A stretch of 64,000 nucleotides of DNA from positions 197,483 to 261,482 of the forward strand of contig JALONQ010000002.1 in NCBI GenBank assembly GCA_025454835.1, in the 5' to 3' direction. A model generated the notes under the pieces. The model was not told the DNA's origin, searched no databases, and saw only the letters and a program-made list of their open reading frames with translations. The stretch's first letter is position 1. Every line of letters begins with the position of its first letter. Shown here piece by piece: positions 2-9,519 of the stretch. This DNA comes from Bacteroidota bacterium (lineage in GTDB: Bacteria > Bacteroidota > Ignavibacteria > UBA10030). The position numbers and the translations under genes are program-made.

Positions 2-2593
2 AGCCCGCTCGCCGGTGAGGCCGCCTACTGGCTGGGGGAAAGCTACGTGGCGCTGGGTGAGCGCGAGACGGCCGTCAAATACTACACGCTTTCCTTCGAG
101 CACTTCCCGAACAACCCTTACAAGGACTACGCGCTCTACGCTATCGGCTGGACCCGGCAATCCGGGCGGAACTACGCCGAGGCCATGACCTCGTACCGAA
201 TGCTGATCGATTCGTTGCCTTCGAGTTCCTTGGGGTCCGCTGCGCGGATCCGGATCGCGGAGTGTCGCTTTGGTCTGGAGGATTTCTCAGGCGCGTTGGC
301 CGGATTGCTGAAGGAGCGGTCCTCGATCAGCGCGCCGCTCGAAGCTGGCCAGGCCGATTTCCTGATCGCTGAATCGCACGAGCGCCTCGGGCAGCATGCC
401 GCGGCTCTCGACGCGTATCACCGGTTCCTATCATCGCATCCCGACCATCCGCTGCACGAGGATGGGCAGTACGGCTTGGGATGGACGCTCTTCCAGGCGG
501 GGAAGTTGGATTCAGCGTCGGCGGTGTTCGGAGAGGTTGGCTTGCGTGGCGGCAAGCGCGCTGCGGCGGCAATGTACCGAAAAGGGGCTGCAGACCTGAT
601 GCGACGCGATACGACGGCGGCGATGGACGCCTACCGTCGTTGTGTTGACCTCGATGCACAGGGCGAGTTTGCCGATAACGCGCTCGTCGATCAGGCCGAT
701 CTGCTTCTGTTGAAGGGGGATGTGGGCGGCGCGAAGACGACGGCCGAGCGCGTTGTGCAGTCGTATCCCGGGTCCGACGTCAAGGCCGATGCGTTGCGGA
801 TCGTCGGCGACGCGCTGTTGCGCCAAGGAGAGCCGGTGCTCGCTCGTGAGCGCCTGCGTGAAGCCTCCGCCGTTCCCGGAGCGCGGTTCGACGTGGCCGT
901 CGGCGCGTCATTCCAGACGGCATGGGCGTCGTTCCGCGCCGGCGAGTATGAGCAAGCATCGATTGAGTTCGGGGCGTTCATCCAGAAGTACCCCGCGCAC
1001 CCGCGTTCGGCCGAAGCACGCTACTGGCAGGCCGAGGCCGAGTACCGCCGGGGATCCTTCGAGAAGGCGCTTGCTCTGTATCGCATGATCTCGGCGGAGG
1101 CCAATCATACGCGCCGCCTCGATGCCGCGTATGGCGAGGGTTGGTCGCTCTACAAGCTCGGTCGGTACCAAGAATCGGCGGCGGCCTTCGAGAGGCTCGT
1201 GCAGTTCGCCCCGCGTGGAGCCTACGCCTATGATGCCCGGCTCCGGCAGGCCGACGCGCTCTTCGCGCTCAAAGAGTACGCACGCGCCGGACAGACGTAT
1301 CGTTCAGTCCTGCGCACGTTTCCCGACAGCGCCTCGAACGACTACGCCGCCTATCAGGCCGCACAAGCCGCCTATCGGGGGAACGATCTCACCGAGGCGT
1401 ACAAGCAGTTCGCAGAGCTCGTTCGGACCATGCCGCAGTCGCCGTTGGCCGACGACGCTCAATATGCGATGGGCTGGGTGAACTTCCAGCGGAAGGAATA
1501 CACCGAAGCGATCAGAGAATTCCAGAAGGTGACCCGGAATTTTCCCACAAGTGATGCGGCTCCGAGGGCATTCTACAGTCTCGGTGACTCCTACTACAAC
1601 CTTCAACAGTACGCCGCCGCTGAAGCTTCGTATCGGGAGCTGATCAGGCGATTCCCGGACCATCGGCTTCTGGCCGACGGCATGGTTGGCCTTCAGTATG
1701 CGCTCGTCGCGCAGGGGAAGGAACAAGAGGCCTCCGCCGTCATCGACCAATTTATCCGCGACCATGAAGGCACCTCGGCGGCGATAGACCTGAGACTGAA
1801 GAAGGCAGAACTCCTCTTCGGCCAGAAGAACTTCGCGGCCGCGGCCGACGCTTATCGTTCCTATCTCACCGCTGCGCCCGACGGGCGCGACCGAGGGCAG
1901 GCCCATTACTGGCTCGGGCGCTCGTTGCTCGCCATGGGACAGGGAGCCGACGCGCTTCGATCGTTCGAGGCGGCGGCGGGATCGGAGGGCCGATTTGCGG
2001 GTCTGGCATCGATCGAAGCCATCGACCTTGCCATGGCCGCCGGGAGCAGCGCAAAGGCGCTCGAATTCATCATGCGGTCGGAGAAGCGGTTCGGTTCTGA
2101 CGCTGATGTTCTGCCAGAGGTCACCTATCGCAAAGGGCAGCTCTTCCTGAACGACGGCAACGGACCCGAAGCCCGGCGGATCTGGGGCGAAGTGATCCGA
2201 CGCTGGGAGTCGAGCCGCGCATCCGATCGGGCCCGTGTCGGTCTGGCGCGACTTTCGATCACGGCCGGGGACCTCGTGGAAGCACGCACGCTGGCACAAC
2301 GGGTGGCCACCGGTCGTACAGACGAGATTGGGGCTGAGGCGCAATTCGTCGTCGGAGAAACGTGGGCGGCCGCCGGTGATTGGAAGCAGGCCGCGACCGC
2401 CTACCTGCGCGTTCGCTACGTCTTCACGGCGTATCCCCTCTGGGTGAATCGCGCGATGCTGGAGGCAGGACGGGCGTATGAGCGCGGAGGAGACAAGGCC
2501 CGGGCCAAAGAGACCTATCGTGACCTGCTGAAGCGTCAGCCCGAAGCCTCGATACGGGCGGAAGCCGAACAACGAATCGGGGCGTTGAATTGA
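2..2593 (+). CDS. Large TPR-repeat protein, 5' end outside the window
   Basis: The reading frame is open from base 2, so the N-terminus and any signal peptide lie upstream of the window. The visible 863 residues are almost entirely degenerate tetratricopeptide-type helical pairs of about 34-38 residues, with recurring A-x-Y-W/A-x-G and F-P-x-S/H signatures as in CpoB/YbgF- and BamD-like periplasmic TPR proteins. It has no catalytic motif, so a scaffolding role in the periplasm or at the outer membrane is inferred. Its TGA stop overlaps the ATG of the next gene by one base, which indicates translational coupling with a beta-barrel protein. Genes for SPOR, ExbB, ExbD and TonB proteins follow in the same direction. 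The TPR fold is confident; the specific role is unknown. Confidence 0.85.
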   Translation, partial: SPLAGEAAYWLGESYVALGERETAVKYYTLSFEHFPNNPYKDYALYAIGWTRQSGRNYAEAMTSYRMLIDSLPSSSLGSAARIRIAECRFGLEDFSGALAGLLKERSSISAPLEAGQADFLIAESHERLGQHAAALDAYHRFLSSHPDHPLHEDGQYGLGWTLFQAGKLDSASAVFGEVGLRGGKRAAAAMYRKGAADLMRRDTTAAMDAYRRCVDLDAQGEFADNALVDQADLLLLKGDVGGAKTTAERVVQSYPGSDVKADALRIVGDALLRQGEPVLARERLREASAVPGARFDVAVGASFQTAWASFRAGEYEQASIEFGAFIQKYPAHPRSAEARYWQAEAEYRRGSFEKALALYRMISAEANHTRRLDAAYGEGWSLYKLGRYQESAAAFERLVQFAPRGAYAYDARLRQADALFALKEYARAGQTYRSVLRTFPDSASNDYAAYQAAQAAYRGNDLTEAYKQFAELVRTMPQSPLADDAQYAMGWVNFQRKEYTEAIREFQKVTRNFPTSDAAPRAFYSLGDSYYNLQQYAAAEASYRELIRRFPDHRLLADGMVGLQYALVAQGKEQEASAVIDQFIRDHEGTSAAIDLRLKKAELLFGQKNFAAAADAYRSYLTAAPDGRDRGQAHYWLGRSLLAMGQGADALRSFEAAAGSEGRFAGLASIEAIDLAMAAGSSAKALEFIMRSEKRFGSDADVLPEVTYRKGQLFLNDGNGPEARRIWGEVIRRWESSRASDRARVGLARLSITAGDLVEARTLAQRVATGRTDEIGAEAQFVVGETWAAAGDWKQAATAYLRVRYVFTAYPLWVNRAMLEAGRAYERGGDKARAKETYRDLLKRQPEASIRAEAEQRIGALN

Positions 2594-4245
2594 TGCGTCA
2601 CCTGTCGATCACGCTCGCCGTCACCGTGACGCTGGCCTCGGCGCAGGAACGCCCCACGCCCCCGGATCGTCGCGACCTGGCGCCGCCGCGAGACACCGTC
2701 GCCTCGGCGTTGCCGACCTTCGATCTTCCGGAGTTTGTCATCACGGGCCTATCCTCGATCGAGTTGCCACGGGTGGAGAAGCGGCTCGAAGAAGGTGGTC
2801 CGACGGGGAATGTGCTCGTCGCGACCGCGGCGCCAGTGCGTGACCGTACGACCGGTCTTGCTCCGGGGGCAGATCTCGGCAACCGCCCGTCCGTTGGCTT
2901 GCCGACGGGATTTGAGGGATACGTTCGCGCTGGAATGGGCTCGTATCGGATGCCGCAGGTGCTGGTGGCCGTCCGGCCTATCGTTGGGTCGCTTTCCCTC
3001 GGGGTCAGCGGTCAGTATCGTCGTTCCAGCGGCTTCGCTCCATGGACCTCGTGGTCCGAAGGGGGCGGCAAGCTGTCGGCGGCGCTTCCCGTCGACTTGG
3101 GCTCGGCCGGAGTGACGAACGCGACGCTTTCGGGAGACCTCGCCGTCGATTCGCGATCCTATCATTGGTACGGGACATCGTCACCGTGGCACCGCCGCAA
3201 GATGACGCTGGCCGATGGAGGCATTGGGGCCCGAGGCTTGCTCGGAGCATGGAACGGTTCGCTCTCGCTCCGATTCGGTTCGACGTCCTTCGCCGACACG
3301 TCCGCGTCAGTAACAGAATCGACAACCCGCGTCGACGCAGGTGTCGAGGGGACAGTGCAGGGGATCCCGCTGGCCGGGTCGATCTCGGTCCTCAGCTCGG
3401 AGCGCTCGCTCGCAGCCACTTCGCCCGCCGGCGTGGCGTCGCTCAAGGTTGAGAGTCGTTGGCAACCGATGCCGTCGGTCTGGCTGTCGGGCGGCATTGG
3501 ATTCGCGTTCCTGCAAGGAGACGGCGGTCAGCGGCGCGGAGTGCTGTTGCCGACGGTCTTGGTGCGGTTTGCAATCGACGAGCAGCATCGATTGGCAGGG
3601 GCTTTCGAGCCGCGCGTCGAAGGCATTACACTGATGTCATCCCAAGGTGGGCATCGGTTCGTGGATGCTCAGACCCCTTTGCGGCAATCGTATTGGAGCA
3701 ATGCCGGACGTTTTGGCTTGGAATCGGATTGGACGCCGGACATCCGGACGCGCGTTGAGGTGGAGGCAGGGAAGGCGAGCGATCTGGCGATGGTCGCCGA
3801 TCCCAGCGTCGACGGCGTCATGCAGTGGCTATATGGTGACGCCTCCTTTGCAGCCTTGCGGGCGGAGTGTATTGCAAAGATGCGCGGGAATGACTATTTT
3901 TCCGCAACGGTCATCTTGAGGTCCTCCCGGAACGCCGCCAGCGGGTTGCGTATCCCATACTGGCCTGGGCTTGAGGCGAGGGTCTCCTACATGGCGTTGG
4001 TGACGCCGTCGCTGACCGTTCGCAGTTCCCTACAGATCGTGCACACGAGAGAGACGCAATGGTTGGGCGCCTCCTCGGCACTTCCGGAGTACATCGTCGT
4101 CGATGTGGTCGGGTCGTACGCCGTCCTTCCCTCACTCTCGGTGTGGTCGGAGGTGACGAATCTATCGAATTCGGTCTATCAACACTGGAAGGGCATCCAA
4201 GAGCCGCCCTTCCGGTTGTCCGCCGGGATCGCCCTGGCGTGGTAA
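2593..4245 (+). CDS. Outer-membrane beta-barrel protein with TonB-box-like N-terminus
   Basis: A 550-residue protein beginning with a signal peptide (residues 1-17, ending A-S-A). The ATG at 2593 overlaps the preceding stop and is preferred over the TTG three bases upstream. Residues 47-52 read E-F-V-I-T-G, resembling a TonB box, close to the mature N-terminus. The rest consists of alternating amphipathic strands rich in G, S, R and aromatic residues and ends with a terminal Trp, as in outer-membrane barrels. I see no canonical plug domain, and the length is short for a classical TonB-dependent receptor. The downstream exbB-exbD-tonB genes make energised function plausible. The cargo is unknown; the barrel assignment is likely and the TonB link is inferred. 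Confidence 0.75.
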   Translation: MRHLSITLAVTVTLASAQERPTPPDRRDLAPPRDTVASALPTFDLPEFVITGLSSIELPRVEKRLEEGGPTGNVLVATAAPVRDRTTGLAPGADLGNRPSVGLPTGFEGYVRAGMGSYRMPQVLVAVRPIVGSLSLGVSGQYRRSSGFAPWTSWSEGGGKLSAALPVDLGSAGVTNATLSGDLAVDSRSYHWYGTSSPWHRRKMTLADGGIGARGLLGAWNGSLSLRFGSTSFADTSASVTESTTRVDAGVEGTVQGIPLAGSISVLSSERSLAATSPAGVASLKVESRWQPMPSVWLSGGIGFAFLQGDGGQRRGVLLPTVLVRFAIDEQHRLAGAFEPRVEGITLMSSQGGHRFVDAQTPLRQSYWSNAGRFGLESDWTPDIRTRVEVEAGKASDLAMVADPSVDGVMQWLYGDASFAALRAECIAKMRGNDYFSATVILRSSRNAASGLRIPYWPGLEARVSYMALVTPSLTVRSSLQIVHTRETQWLGASSALPEYIVVDVVGSYAVLPSLSVWSEVTNLSNSVYQHWKGIQEPPFRLSAGIALAW

Positions 4246-4282
4246 CGTGTGATGTTTCTCATCCAACTCAAGGAGGCTTCCC

Positions 4283-4945
4283 ATGCCTGACCTGAACCTG
4301 ATCGATGATGAACCATCGGGCGAAGAATCGTTCGCCTCTGAAGCGCCGGAGCGGCCGGCGGCAAAAGGGGGCGGCGGTGGCGGTACGCTCCGATTGGTCA
4401 TCATCCTGTCCCTCTTGGTTCTGATCATCGCCGGACTGCTGTATGTGCTCAATAGTCGCGGGATCGTCCACCTGTGGGGCAAGAAGCAACAAACGGTCGT
4501 TCAGGTACCCGACGAGCAGTATCCGCCGGACCAGTTCAACGATGAAACGTTCGCCCAGCAGCCGATGGATACGATGGCGGCCGGTGAAGCGGCCGAGGAG
4601 ATGGCGCTCCTCGAGACCACGCCCATCGAAGAAGGCGCCCCGGCAGAACCCGCTCCTGCCAGCCCAGAACCGTTGGCCGGATCGGGCGCCCTCAAGGACA
4701 TGAAGGGTGACTACACGATCCAGGTGGTGGCCTTCCGCGAGAAAGAGAAGGCGGTCGACATCCTGCAGAACCTCGAGATCGCCGGCTACCCGGCCTTCGT
4801 CGAGAAGGTGCCGATGAAGGGGGGCGATTGGTACACCGTGCGGATCGGCCGCTATCCGACCCGCGGCGATGCCAAGTTGGCCGTTGCCTCCTTCGCCGAG
4901 CAGATCCGCTCCAACTACGTGATCGACCGCGTCCGGTCGAAGTGA
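4283..4945 (+). CDS. SPOR-domain membrane protein
   Basis: A 220-residue bitopic protein. It has a short acidic cytoplasmic N-terminus, a Gly-rich stretch (residues 29-34), one transmembrane helix (about 36-56), a Pro/Ala/Glu-rich periplasmic linker, and a C-terminal SPOR domain (about 144-219) starting Y-T-I-Q-V-V-A-F and containing W-Y-T-V-R-I-G-R-Y. SPOR domains bind denuded septal peptidoglycan. An AAGGAGG Shine-Dalgarno at 4270-4276 fixes the start. The gene sits between an outer-membrane protein and exbBD-tonB, so a link between envelope energisation and the division site is possible but inferred. Domain identification is strong. Confidence 0.88.
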   Translation: MPDLNLIDDEPSGEESFASEAPERPAAKGGGGGGTLRLVIILSLLVLIIAGLLYVLNSRGIVHLWGKKQQTVVQVPDEQYPPDQFNDETFAQQPMDTMAAGEAAEEMALLETTPIEEGAPAEPAPASPEPLAGSGALKDMKGDYTIQVVAFREKEKAVDILQNLEIAGYPAFVEKVPMKGGDWYTVRIGRYPTRGDAKLAVASFAEQIRSNYVIDRVRSK

Positions 4946-4979
4946 CCGGCGGCCGGCATTCTGCTTCGATGATGGTTCC

Positions 4980-5006
4980 TGCGGTCCGGCTTCGTTCCGG
5001 ACCGCA
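4980..5006 (+). promoter_or_regulatory. Intercistronic RNA hairpin between SPOR gene and exbB
   Basis: A perfect 10-bp inverted repeat (4980-4989 with 4997-5006) encloses a 7-base loop. It lies in the 91-base gap before exbB and has no T-tract after it. An mRNA processing or stability element, or a weak attenuator lowering exbB-exbD-tonB expression, fits better than a full terminator. Confidence 0.5.
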
Positions 5007-5036
5007 AGGTAGCCATCGCCCCATTCCAGAGGACCT

Positions 5037-5675
5037 ATGAGCCTGCTTGATCTCTTCCTGCGCGGCGGCGTGGTCATGTGGCCGATCCTTCTGACCTCGG
5101 TCATCGGCGCCGTCGTGATCGTCGAACGGTGGCTCGTCCTCCGTCGCGCAAGGATCGACGCGGGGCAGTTCCTCCTGAAACTCCGCTCCGTCCTCCAGAA
5201 GGGGGACATCATGGCGGCCGTGAACTTCTGCTCCAAGACCGACGCGCCCCTCGCCAATATCCTGAAACGTGGCCTGACGATGTATCCTCATGGCCACGAA
5301 CGGGTCCGTGAGGCGATCGAGAACGCCGGCAAGGCGGAGGCGTTCAAGCTCGAGGAGCGTCTTGGCGTGCTCGCCAACGTGGCAGGGATCGCCCCGCTGC
5401 TCGGATTCCTCGGTACAGTCACCGGCATGATCGGGGCGTTTCAGATGATCCAGTCGCTCGGCGGCACAGCCTCCCCGGCGGACCTCGCCGGCGGCATCTG
5501 GGAGGCGTTGCTCACGACCGCATTTGGCCTCTTCGTCGGCATCCCGGCATACGGGTTCTACAACTACTTCGTATCGAAGGTGGGCCGATTCGTCTTCGAG
5601 ATGGAGAGCGGCTCCGAAGAATTCCTGGACCTTGTTCGGTCCGGGCAGTTGGAGCAGACGCCCGAGAAGGGTTGA
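5037..5675 (+). CDS. exbB: ExbB/TolQ/MotA-family proton channel subunit
   Basis: A 212-residue inner-membrane protein with the family's three-helix layout: TM1 near residues 12-29, a long cytoplasmic loop, TM2 (about 118-140, with L-G-F-L-G-T-V-T-G-M) and TM3 (about 156-180, with L-L-T-T-A-F-G-L-F-V-G-I-P). The conserved polar Thr residues lining the channel in TM2 and TM3 are present. With ExbD it converts proton-motive force into motion of the TonB-type coupling protein. It is followed three bases after its stop by exbD and then tonB. ExbB and TolQ cannot be told apart by eye; the TonB partner next door favours ExbB. Confidence 0.92.
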   Translation: MSLLDLFLRGGVVMWPILLTSVIGAVVIVERWLVLRRARIDAGQFLLKLRSVLQKGDIMAAVNFCSKTDAPLANILKRGLTMYPHGHERVREAIENAGKAEAFKLEERLGVLANVAGIAPLLGFLGTVTGMIGAFQMIQSLGGTASPADLAGGIWEALLTTAFGLFVGIPAYGFYNYFVSKVGRFVFEMESGSEEFLDLVRSGQLEQTPEKG

Positions 5676-5678
5676 CGT

Positions 5679-6083
5679 ATGCGGTTTCGATCCTCAAGCC
5701 CACCGCTGTTGACGGCATTCTCCTACGCGTCGCTCACGGACGTCGTCCTGCAGCTCCTCATCTTCTTTCTCCTGTCGTCGGCGTACGTCATCCAGTCCGG
5801 CGTCAAAGTGCAACTGCCGAAGTCGGAGACGGGAGAACGCGGGACGAAGGCGCAGATCGTCGTATCAGTCAACGCCGACGGCGCGTTCTTCCTGAACACG
5901 AAACCGGTCTCCCGCGATCAACTGCGCGACGGCGTGCGCTCGATGCTCGTCGAGCAGGCAGACCCGGTGGTCGTCATCCAGGCCGACAAAGCTGTCAGCC
6001 TGCAAGTGGCTGTGGAGGCCATGGACATCGTCAAATCGGCCGGCGGGTCGAAGTTCCTGATCGCCACCGAACCGGTGGAGTGA
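5679..6083 (+). CDS. exbD: ExbD/TolR-family biopolymer transport protein
   Basis: A 134-residue protein with a single N-terminal transmembrane helix. It contains the essential membrane Asp (D21 in S-L-T-D-V-V-L-Q-L-L-I-F-F), the proton-path residue of ExbD/TolR. A periplasmic domain of about 90 residues ends in the usual V-V-I-Q-A-D-K and M-D-I-V-K-S-A-G elements. The spacing to exbB is three bases and to tonB four bases, so all three are co-transcribed. It works as part of the ExbB-ExbD stator-like motor. Family assignment is firm. Confidence 0.92.
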   Translation: MRFRSSSPPLLTAFSYASLTDVVLQLLIFFLLSSAYVIQSGVKVQLPKSETGERGTKAQIVVSVNADGAFFLNTKPVSRDQLRDGVRSMLVEQADPVVVIQADKAVSLQVAVEAMDIVKSAGGSKFLIATEPVE

Positions 6084-6087
6084 ACCG

Positions 6088-6882
6088 ATGACGCCCGAGC
6101 TGCGCATCGGTTGGACGGCCTCCATCGTCTTCCACGTACTGCTCCTCCTGCTGGCGCTCCTGTACCTGCTGCCGAGCGTCACATCCCGCACGGAATTCAT
6201 CGAGCTTGAGTGGGGCAATCTGCCCGCGACGGCCTCGGTCACCCCTCCCGCGCCGCCAGCCGCGGCCCCTACGACCGTGCGAAATGCTCCGGTCGTTGCG
6301 AAGAGGCAGCCCACATCCCGTCCGGCTCAGCGCAGCGTCGCGTTGCCGGAACGTCGCCTGCCCGATCTCTCCGATGAGGCTATCGCGATTCCTCGCCGAT
6401 CGGACAAGCTGGACATGCTTGGACTTGAGACCACGCCAGACCGGTCCGATCGGACGACCTCAGACCGCCAGGATCCGGTGGGCTCGCGAGAAGTGACGAT
6501 CCCGGGGAAGGCTTCCGAACGCCCGGGCGTGTCGCCAACAGGGTCGGGTGTCGGCGAGGGCGTCACTCGGCCTGGCTCAGGAGGAGCGGGCTCGGGTGTG
6601 GGATTCGATGTTCAGTGGACCGGAGGCGGGTCCAGAAAGAAGCTGAGCGGCGACCTTCCGAAGTATCCGGAGGGGATCAATGTCGCGGCGCAGGTGCGGA
6701 TCAGAGGGTGGGTCTTGCCGAATGGATCCGTTCGCGCCGTTCAGCCCGTACAGAAGGCCAATACGGCCCTCGAAGAAGCCGCCATGAAGGAGCTGAAGCT
6801 TTGGAGGTTCGAGCCTCTGCCTTCGGCCATGCCTCAGGTGGAACAAGACTGCGTGGTCACCTTCCTGTTCCGTCTCCGCTGA
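6088..6882 (+). CDS. tonB: TonB-family energy transducer
   Basis: A 264-residue protein with an N-terminal membrane anchor (about residues 12-30), a Pro/Ala/Ser-rich and then Gly/Ser-rich periplasmic spacer (about 45-180), and a TonB C-terminal domain (about 185-264). That domain contains K-Y-P-E-G, V-R-I-R-G-W-V-L-P-N-G and A-A-M-K-E-L-K-L-W-R-F-E-P. It would couple the ExbBD motor to an outer-membrane partner, most simply the barrel encoded at 2593-4245. It is the last gene of the operon, with a stem-loop 70 bases downstream. Confidence 0.9.
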   Translation: MTPELRIGWTASIVFHVLLLLLALLYLLPSVTSRTEFIELEWGNLPATASVTPPAPPAAAPTTVRNAPVVAKRQPTSRPAQRSVALPERRLPDLSDEAIAIPRRSDKLDMLGLETTPDRSDRTTSDRQDPVGSREVTIPGKASERPGVSPTGSGVGEGVTRPGSGGAGSGVGFDVQWTGGGSRKKLSGDLPKYPEGINVAAQVRIRGWVLPNGSVRAVQPVQKANTALEEAAMKELKLWRFEPLPSAMPQVEQDCVVTFLFRLR

Positions 6883-7463: not shown

Positions 7464-8870
7464 TCAATACGCGTCCTCACCAAAGAGGACGGCGCGGATC
7501 GTCTTCGAGATGATCTTCAGGTCGAACACGAGCGACCAGTTCTCGACGTAGTAGATATCGTATCGTGTGCGTTCATCGATGGGAGCGTTGCCGCGGAGGC
7601 CGTTCACCTGCGCCCATCCCGTCATGCCGGTGCGGACCCGATGGCGTTCGAGGTACTTCGGGATCTCGCGCCGGAATTGCTCCACGAAGTGCGGACGTTC
7701 CGGCCGCGGGCCCACGAGGCTCATGTCGCCCCGAATGACGTTGAGGAGTTGCGGCAGTTCGTCCAGGCTGAACCGACGCAGAAACTTACCGACCGGCGTT
7801 GTGCGGGGATCGTTCTTCGCAGCCCAGACCGGTCCGGTTGAACTCTCAGCATCCGTACGCATCGACCGAAACTTCATGACCTGAAAGGGCTCGCCGTCAA
7901 GCCCGATCCGTTCCTGGAAGTAGAAGACCGGACCGCGGGAGGTCAGCTTCACGAGCAAGGCGAGCAGGAGGAATACCGGGCTGATGAGGAGAAGGATCAG
8001 CACGGCAGCCACGAGGTCGAACGTGCGCTTCACGAACGCATCGAAGGGCGTCAGCGCGACGCCTTTGATGCGCAGGAAGGGCATTCCGTCGATCTCTCGC
8101 ACCCGCACGCGGCTGGTGAGCAGTTCGACGAGGTCGGGCAGCATCATGAGCTCGACATTGAGCCCGTCGCAGCTGCGGACGAGCCGGTTCACCGTGGCGT
8201 GGTCCGTCTCCCCGAACGCGAGCAGCACGAGATCGATGTGCTGGTCGGCGACAATGCGCGGCAGGTCTTCGATCGACCCAAGACGCGGAACGGCCTGATC
8301 CGCTGACGACCCCTCCGTGCTGACGGTCCCGACCACCTGATAGCCGAGTCCCGGATTGTGACGCAGTGAGGCGACCAGACGTGTGGCGATGGCGCCCGAG
8401 CCGGCCACGACGACGCGCTGGAGGTCGCGGCCCTGTCGATACCACCATTGCTCGAACCTGAGCATCGACCAGCGCCCCAGCGAGACGGTCAGGATCGACG
8501 TGAGGCCGAGAAGGGCAAAGACGATGCGCGAGTAGGAGAAGGTGCGGTAGAAGAAGGCCGCCGCCATCACGACGAGCATGCCGACAAAAACAAGCCGGAC
8601 CAGTGCGAAGAACTCGTCGGAGAAGTGGAGCGTGCGGCGCGTGGCATACATGCCTCGGCGCGAGAACAACCACAGCCAGACTGGAATGACGAAGAGCGAC
8701 CCGAAAAGGTAGGCTTCGAGCGGAGGATAGCCCTTCGTTACAGAGAAGACCGACGTGAGGGGCGAAGAGAACCGCAGCCAGTACGAGAGCAGGAAGGCTG
8801 CCTCGATCGCCAGCGCGTCAACGACCGCGGTCGCAATGGGCAGCAAGATGTCTTTGCGGCGTTTGCTCAA
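7464..8870 (-). CDS. Polyprenyl-phosphate sugar-1-phosphate transferase (WbaP/WcaJ type)
   Basis: About 468 residues. Four or five N-terminal transmembrane helices are followed by a Rossmann-like CoA-binding-3 domain ([12 protein letters not shown]) and a C-terminal bacterial sugar-transferase domain. That last domain has [27 protein letters not shown] and S-L-V-G-P-R-P motifs. The family moves a sugar-1-phosphate from a nucleotide sugar to undecaprenyl phosphate, starting exopolysaccharide or O-unit assembly. The frame runs upstream into gmhA without an ATG, so the start is uncertain. TTG at 8870, just after the gmhA stop, with GGGACC upstream, is my choice. Only start and sugar specificity are in doubt. 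Confidence 0.85.
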
Positions 8871-8913
8871 GTAAAGGTCCCGATTGGCGCGTTGGGGAGT
8901 GTGGAAGGGTGCT

Positions 8914-9519
8914 CTACCCGAACATCTCTTGTTCGACCTGCTGAAAGATGATGTGACCGATGGTGATGTGACCTTCCTGGATGCGCTGGGTATCATCCGA
9001 TGGGACCACGATCGCCAGGTCCACCAGGTCCTTTGCCGGTCCGCCGTCCTTACCCAGGAATCCGATGGTGGCCATTCCCATTTCCTTCGCCCTGCGGAAC
9101 GCCAAATTGACGCTCTCCGACCGGCCGCTCGTACTGATGCCGATGAGCACATCCCCCGGCTGTCCGAGCGCCTGCACCGAACGAGCGAACACGGCGTCGT
9201 AGCCGAGGTCGTTTGCCCCCGCCGTCAGGTTCGAGGTGTCGGTCGTCAGCGCGATGGCAGGCAGTCCCGGACGCTTGATGTTCGGGTTCAATCGGATCAC
9301 GAACTCCGTGGCCAGATGCTGGGCGTCGGCAGCGCTTCCTCCATTACCGCACAGGAGGATCTTCTTCTTGGCGGTCAGGGCCCGGATCATCAGGTCGATC
9401 GCCTTGGAGATATCCCCCGTCAACTGTTCGGCGATCCGCTGCTTGGTGGCAGCGCTTTCTCGGAGTGAATCCTTGATGAACTTCTCGCGGAAGAGGAGGG
9501 TCATGGGAAGATGGGCCAT
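8914..9519 (-). CDS. gmhA: Sedoheptulose-7-phosphate isomerase (SIS domain)
   Basis: A 201-residue single SIS-domain protein. It contains the sugar-phosphate loop C-G-N-G-G-S-A-A-D-A-Q-H, the second loop I-S-T-S-G-R-S, and C-terminal E-G-H-I-T-I-G-H-I-I, which carries the family's zinc/catalytic Glu and His residues. GmhA converts sedoheptulose 7-phosphate to D-glycero-D-manno-heptose 7-phosphate, the first step toward the ADP-heptose used in LPS core or S-layer glycans. It lies next to a membrane sugar transferase, consistent with surface-glycan synthesis. Two in-frame ATGs (9519, 9504) are possible; the first is used because a weak GGAG lies upstream. Confidence 0.9.
   Translation of the reverse strand: MAHLPMTLLFREKFIKDSLRESAATKQRIAEQLTGDISKAIDLMIRALTAKKKILLCGNGGSAADAQHLATEFVIRLNPNIKRPGLPAIALTTDTSNLTAGANDLGYDAVFARSVQALGQPGDVLIGISTSGRSESVNLAFRRAKEMGMATIGFLGKDGGPAKDLVDLAIVVPSDDTQRIQEGHITIGHIIFQQVEQEMFG

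Follow-up and report, generated by a model that had tools for sequence, protein, structure and literature searches.

The 64,000-nucleotide stretch of Bacteroidota DNA analysed here (the window) opens with six genes for a TPR protein, an outer-membrane barrel, a SPOR protein and an ExbB-ExbD-TonB motor. Do these genes encode a dedicated envelope machine, or a small nutrient receptor that carries its own motor? The window covers C33:197483-261482 of a genome of 47 contigs and 3.2 Mb, with completeness rated at 100%. The six genes follow one another on the plus strand, and the last ends at position 6882:

2..2593, plus strand: 3' part of the gene for a periplasmic TPR protein (Pfam TPR_6, E 7.6e-65; full product 1031 aa)
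2593..4245, plus strand: plug-less receptor-type barrel, 550 aa (AlphaFold model; BtuB is the top structural match)
2725..2748, plus strand: TonB-box-like motif LPEFVITG, barrel residues 45-52 (conservation rank 1 of 542 windows in 60 barrels)
4283..4945, plus strand: SPOR protein, 220 aa, bitopic in the inner membrane (Pfam SPOR, E 1e-13; hydropathy)
5037..5675, plus strand: ExbB/TolQ-type motor subunit, 212 aa (PF01618 MotA_ExbB, E 1.8e-32)
5679..6083, plus strand: ExbD/TolR-type motor subunit, 134 aa (PF02472, E 3.4e-26; intramembrane Asp in SLTDVVLQLLIFFLL)
6088..6882, plus strand: TonB, 264 aa (PF03544 TonB_C, E 6.6e-6; helix with SIVFH, proline-rich linker, TonB C-terminal domain)

The first-pass annotation had described six adjacent same-strand genes, including one for a SPOR protein and a complete ExbB-ExbD-TonB motor, and all were recovered, with Pfam support for every assignment except the barrel. 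Its statement that most of the genes overlap or lie a few bases apart holds for part of the run: the barrel ATG (2593) is one base inside the TPR stop codon, and 3 and 4 bases separate ExbB from ExbD and ExbD from TonB, but the gaps between barrel and SPOR and between SPOR and ExbB measure 37 and 91 bases. The TPR protein is as huge as had been claimed, but only the 3' part of its gene lies inside the window; the complete frame (L005:981-4076, corresponding to C33:196980-200075) starts 503 bases upstream. Since the gene upstream of the operon reads as a DEAD-box helicase and the gene downstream is convergent, the six genes form a discrete run. A polyprenyl glycosylphosphotransferase-like gene (7464-9152, minus strand) is convergent with the operon and adjoins a SIS-domain sugar isomerase-like gene (8914-9519). 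Promoter and terminator scans at the operon yielded nothing useful.

The barrel gave no Pfam match above the cut-off, and we turned to structure prediction. An AlphaFold model built with 36 homologues consists of a disordered segment (residues 1-104) and a confident barrel (residues 108-550, pLDDT mostly >90). The closest solved structures are TonB-dependent transporters, with BtuB first (Foldseek E 1.7e-17, TM 0.64; VIA Z 22.2, 409 residues aligned, rmsd 3.5). The model contains the receptor-type beta-barrel of these transporters and lacks their plug domain, and searches of two homologue sets (n=25 and n=21) returned no plug-domain match. A plug has a length of ~120-150 residues. The distance from the TonB-box-like motif to the first strand is 60-80 residues in 60 of 60 barrels, too little room for a plug. 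Thus, the plug-less appearance noted in the first pass is confirmed at the level of the predicted structure, together with the box-strand spacing and the searches of homologues.

These results bear directly on the reading of the operon as a small receptor for nutrient uptake that brings its own TonB motor, to which the TPR and SPOR proteins would be accessory. A receptor-type barrel encoded with a complete ExbB-ExbD-TonB set fits this reading, and the single-ExbD TonB1 system of Riemerella, a possible orthologue, can power iron receptors of E. coli; in Riemerella itself the system appears to be unneeded for iron uptake (PMC4446302). However, no homologue checked has a plug, the barrel gene is single-copy and near-universal (see below), and the flanking genes read are housekeeping genes, with no uptake genes among them. 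An ordinary small receptor was set aside on the absence of the plug domain in homologues, and we consider the nutrient-receptor reading quite unlikely. Ordinary nutrient uptake is also less likely than an exporter or assembly device, which is considered below.

Within the disordered tail, LPEFVITG is the best conserved of 542 eight-residue windows across 60 barrels. Note that one of the two patterns in a profile built from a closer set of barrels is the box itself; conservation was therefore measured on this separate set, picked by whole-barrel similarity and not by the motif. An initial profile scan with 25 diverse barrels had found no stretch conserved enough, and the closer set succeeded. 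In the 60 barrels, tail residues 40-63 carry 1.89 bits, compared to 0.55 bits for the remaining tail. Outside the class the box varies (e.g. EVEIRG, EIEVVRPYKP), yet it remains among the top windows, and receptors of the same genome bear similar boxes (e.g. AEEVVVTA, MEEVIVRS). As a conserved strand-forming motif in a disordered tail, with a tonB gene nearby, LPEFVITG is best read as a predicted TonB box to which TonB may bind. The TonB-box-like segment that had been pointed out near the barrel N-terminus is thus conserved above chance, in a cluster that recurs in distant families.

The TPR protein has an N-terminal hydrophobic signal peptide and no lipobox cysteine. Its TPR region scores 301 bits against TIGR02795 (cut-off 90.1), a score arising from the repeated TPRs, and 135.6 bits against the CpoB model, where 383 are needed. 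The PorW/SprE and PorE models match the region weakly, with 81.1 and 22 bits. Such matches, and the fact that the operon and type IX secretion are both systems of Bacteroidota, would be in line with a helper role in type IX secretion or gliding, in which the TPR protein is related to PorW/SprE. However, the scores are far under the curated cut-offs of 250 and 600, generic TPR similarity suffices to explain them, and the cluster contains no type IX genes. We regard this reading as very unlikely.

The SPOR protein contains a hydrophobic segment (residues ~29-64) and a SPOR domain (residues 142-210), and thus resembles septal SPOR proteins, in which the domain is likewise carried by a membrane-anchored protein. 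No match was obtained when the PDB was searched with its sequence. The target of SPOR domains is septal peptidoglycan from which the stem peptides have been removed. In other lineages, 8 of 10 operon SPOR proteins carry an amino-terminal DNA-binding domain of HU type (PF00216, PF18174 and PF18175; SPOR genes L171, L172, L174, L177, L183, L187, L129 and L101), 6 of them above the curated cut-off; the HU part is absent from the protein of this genome. The domain composition suggests that the HU-SPOR proteins of relatives may join nucleoid, inner membrane and septal wall.

Among the motor subunits, ExbB scores below the cut-off with both TIGR models (tolQ 110 bits, cut-off 221; exbB 63 bits), as does ExbD with tolR (57 bits, cut-off 127). 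The transmembrane helix of TonB has the SxxxH form (SIVFH), and the protein weakly matches structures of the E. coli TonB C-terminal domain. Judged by SIVFH and by the intramembrane Asp of ExbD, the motor residues look intact. Throughout the phylum, the ExbBs of the cluster group in a single clade, separate from the two other ExbBs of this genome (support 0.83, few outgroups). Two further ExbB-ExbD-ExbD clusters are encoded in the genome (L006:8102-10581 and L007:8724-10550), one of them with TonB; the one on C10 adjoins genes resembling type IX secretion components and perhaps serves that system.

To determine whether the genes co-occur in relatives, as the first-pass annotation had proposed to check, we searched the class with the single barrel sequence as query and obtained matches in 83 of 197 genomes. 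At 41 class-level barrel loci, the same-strand partners were TPR in 38, TonB in 37, SPOR in 31 and ExbB plus ExbD in 23. The full six-gene order is present at 16 of these loci, and TPR-barrel-SPOR-TonB without ExbBD at 11. In several operons lacking ExbB and ExbD, TonB lies directly behind SPOR (L063-L067, L103-L107, L118); in such operons the motor must come from elsewhere. We then read 20 further loci; 5 belong to the same class, and the others are distributed over about a dozen additional families of the phylum. Seven are complete, 6 are short of only a detectable TonB, 17 contain SPOR, and the order is mostly the same; picked by us from the stronger matches, these loci are not a random sample in their proportions. 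The six-gene order thus recurs within the class and in distant families, and the barrel is not scattered apart from its partners, the outcome that would have spoken against a joint system.

A mixed barrel profile matched 278 of 395 genomes of the phylum at E <= 1e-20, nearly always with one copy each. Outside one family, f33 (~86 genomes, counted from search listings), it matched 277 of ~309 genomes. By comparison, this genome encodes 22 receptor barrels, against the near-universal single copy of the plug-less one. The linkage loosens in some lineages, where the motor genes are missing from the locus or TPR and barrel are no longer linked. At the thresholds applied, both TolB and barrel are missing from approximately 32 genomes spread over further families (among them f28, f46, f50 and f16), including G197, G201, G205 and G209 of f28 and the families f46 and f50; these bacteria either can do without the function or perform it by other means. 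Mere divergence was considered as the cause of the missing barrels and dismissed, given that the mixed profile still misses f28, f46 and f50, whose TPR scores are weak or absent. The absence in G470 is accounted for by a contig end.

We next analyzed Tol-Pal, whose TolB and Pal had been reported missing from the cluster. Their absence extends to the whole genome: the TolB amino domain (PF04052, TolB_N) was not found, and a Chlorobium-type TolB profile had no match at E 1e-30. The only two OmpA-like domains of the genome belong to one CARDB-like frame of 1553 aa, and we conclude that the genome has no Pal. This large frame (L038:283-3222) contains repeated CARDB-like stretches in addition to the OmpA-like domains. 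For the same reason a Pal or PorE encoded elsewhere in the genome was dismissed, and no PorE-like OmpA lipoprotein was seen in it.

Over the same 395 genomes, the TolB profile gave strong, full-length matches (E < 1e-179) in 81, all of them in f33; the next matches are partial propellers at 2e-38 or weaker. Of the loci read in five f33 genomes, one is truncated by a contig end and four contain TolQ, TolR, TolA, TolB, Pal and CpoB in this order; in one of these four an additional gene separates TolA from TolB. Conversely, the barrel profile in 32 f33 genomes met mostly the C-terminal part of larger ordinary receptors (best E 2.9e-16), and the TPR protein of the operon was absent from 9 of 9 f33 genomes tested. 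We take f33 to be Chlorobiaceae, as Chlorobi are known to possess Tol-Pal (PMC7391070). According to a 2025 study, tol-pal loci are not identifiable in Bacteroidetes, and further outer-membrane-stabilising systems are expected still to be revealed (PMC12204202). Mutual exclusion of Tol-Pal and the plug-less-barrel system within the phylum is suggestive and not statistical proof, because one family against the rest is a single evolutionary contrast.

The main rival to a Tol-Pal-like role is a TonB-powered exporter or assembly device, in which the open barrel and its TPR partner would move or insert a polymer, lipid or protein outward. It ranks first among the rivals because export machineries, too, can consist of an open barrel and a TPR partner. 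Known exporters, for exopolysaccharide secretion and lipoprotein export, combine a TPR scaffold with a barrel. Here the open barrel lacks a gating plug, and the TPR protein matches TPR_Slam weakly (31.3 bits, cut-off 35.2). Moreover, the receptor-type protein Oar is reported to be needed for protease secretion in Myxococcus (PMC6434023). However, the loci examined share no recurrent synthase, transferase or substrate gene, conservation is highest in the periplasmic box, and export leaves the SPOR/HU partner and the complementarity with Tol-Pal unexplained. We therefore hold an exporter to be unlikely, though deserving of attention.

A dedicated machine is strongly favoured over a small nutrient receptor, as the barrel is not scattered and has no plug, and the flanking genes read are housekeeping genes. 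This choice, which the first pass had left between two readings, is tempered by the lineages in which motor, TPR or barrel genes lie apart. A system that is single-copy, TonB-linked and housekeeping-like, has a plug-less outer-membrane partner, a CpoB-like TPR protein and a septal-wall-binding partner, and occurs in genomes without Tol-Pal is most simply read as its functional counterpart. Specifically, the operon may encode a Ton-type motor machine that links the outer membrane mechanically to the inner membrane and to septal peptidoglycan, and that replaces Tol-Pal in most Bacteroidota, a proposal to which we give an even chance. ExbB-ExbD would energise TonB, driven by the proton-motive force, and the TonB C-terminal domain would bind the LPEFVITG box in the flexible barrel tail. 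As the barrel has no plug, the pull would not open a transporter but would be exerted on the barrel itself, as a handle on the outer membrane. The complex would be placed at denuded septal glycan by the SPOR protein, which in many relatives has a cytoplasmic HU domain too, and the TPR superhelix may connect the barrel with peptidoglycan or with enzymes acting on it, in the manner of CpoB in Tol-Pal. As a result, the outer membrane would be pulled inward and anchored at the constriction. Coupling at the division site is supported indirectly, by the SPOR protein, the HU-SPOR fusions of relatives and the mutual exclusion with Tol-Pal.

The proposed machine shares with Tol-Pal (TolQ-TolR-TolA-TolB-Pal-CpoB) a proton motor of 5:2 type, a force transducer, a periplasmic TPR protein, a predicted link to septal peptidoglycan and a housekeeping-like distribution, complementary in the phylum. 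In contrast to Tol-Pal, the operon has neither TolB nor Pal, its transducer ends in a TonB-type C-terminus, its partner at the outer membrane is a barrel whose tail bears a TonB-box-like motif, and its predicted septal link is SPOR instead of the OmpA-like domain of Pal. Thus, it is no member of Tol-Pal; that it nonetheless works like Tol-Pal is a view we find evenly balanced. With TonB-dependent transporters such as BtuB it shares the barrel fold, the TonB-box-like segment and the ExbBD-TonB motor, but its barrel is plug-less and a single-copy core gene, with TPR and SPOR partners and no uptake neighbours found. In the gliding of Myxococcus, a TolQR-type motor acts together with TPR proteins and proteins of the outer membrane. 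The protein families of this Agl-Glt machinery (PMC3169522) are different from those of the operon; the GltC model gives 49 of 450 bits, and there is no sign of motility genes. In Anabaena, a TonB-like protein is known to have a role at septa (PMC8262864). A published competing candidate, PorE, is proposed as an outer-membrane tether that couples the outer membrane to peptidoglycan in the same phylum (PMC12204202), and it counts against our reading. PorE differs from the operon in being one lipoprotein with TPR, propeller and OmpA-like domains, the last of which are confined to the 1553-aa frame in this genome.

The system looks undescribed: in the open-licence literature, with subscription journals and preprints mostly outside this scope, we found no description of the operon, of plug-less TonB-box barrels, or of SPOR with ExbD/TonB in Bacteroidetes. 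It could represent a third class of Ton/Tol-type system, distinct from transporters and from Tol-Pal alike, in which TonB pulls a plug-less barrel that serves solely as a handle on the outer membrane, an HU-SPOR protein positions the machine and links nucleoid, septal wall and outer membrane, and the outer membrane is constricted, a possibility to which we lend somewhat less than even credence. Bacteroidota are a major phylum of gut, soil and water, and how they hold and constrict the outer membrane without Tol-Pal was treated as open in 2025 (PMC12204202). The operon is a specific candidate that is nearly universal and whose motif can be tested. If the reading is correct, a plug-less barrel can serve a Ton motor as a mechanical anchor, which would widen the accepted role of TonB, and the operon would be what Bacteroidota may use instead of Tol-Pal to hold their two membranes together during division.
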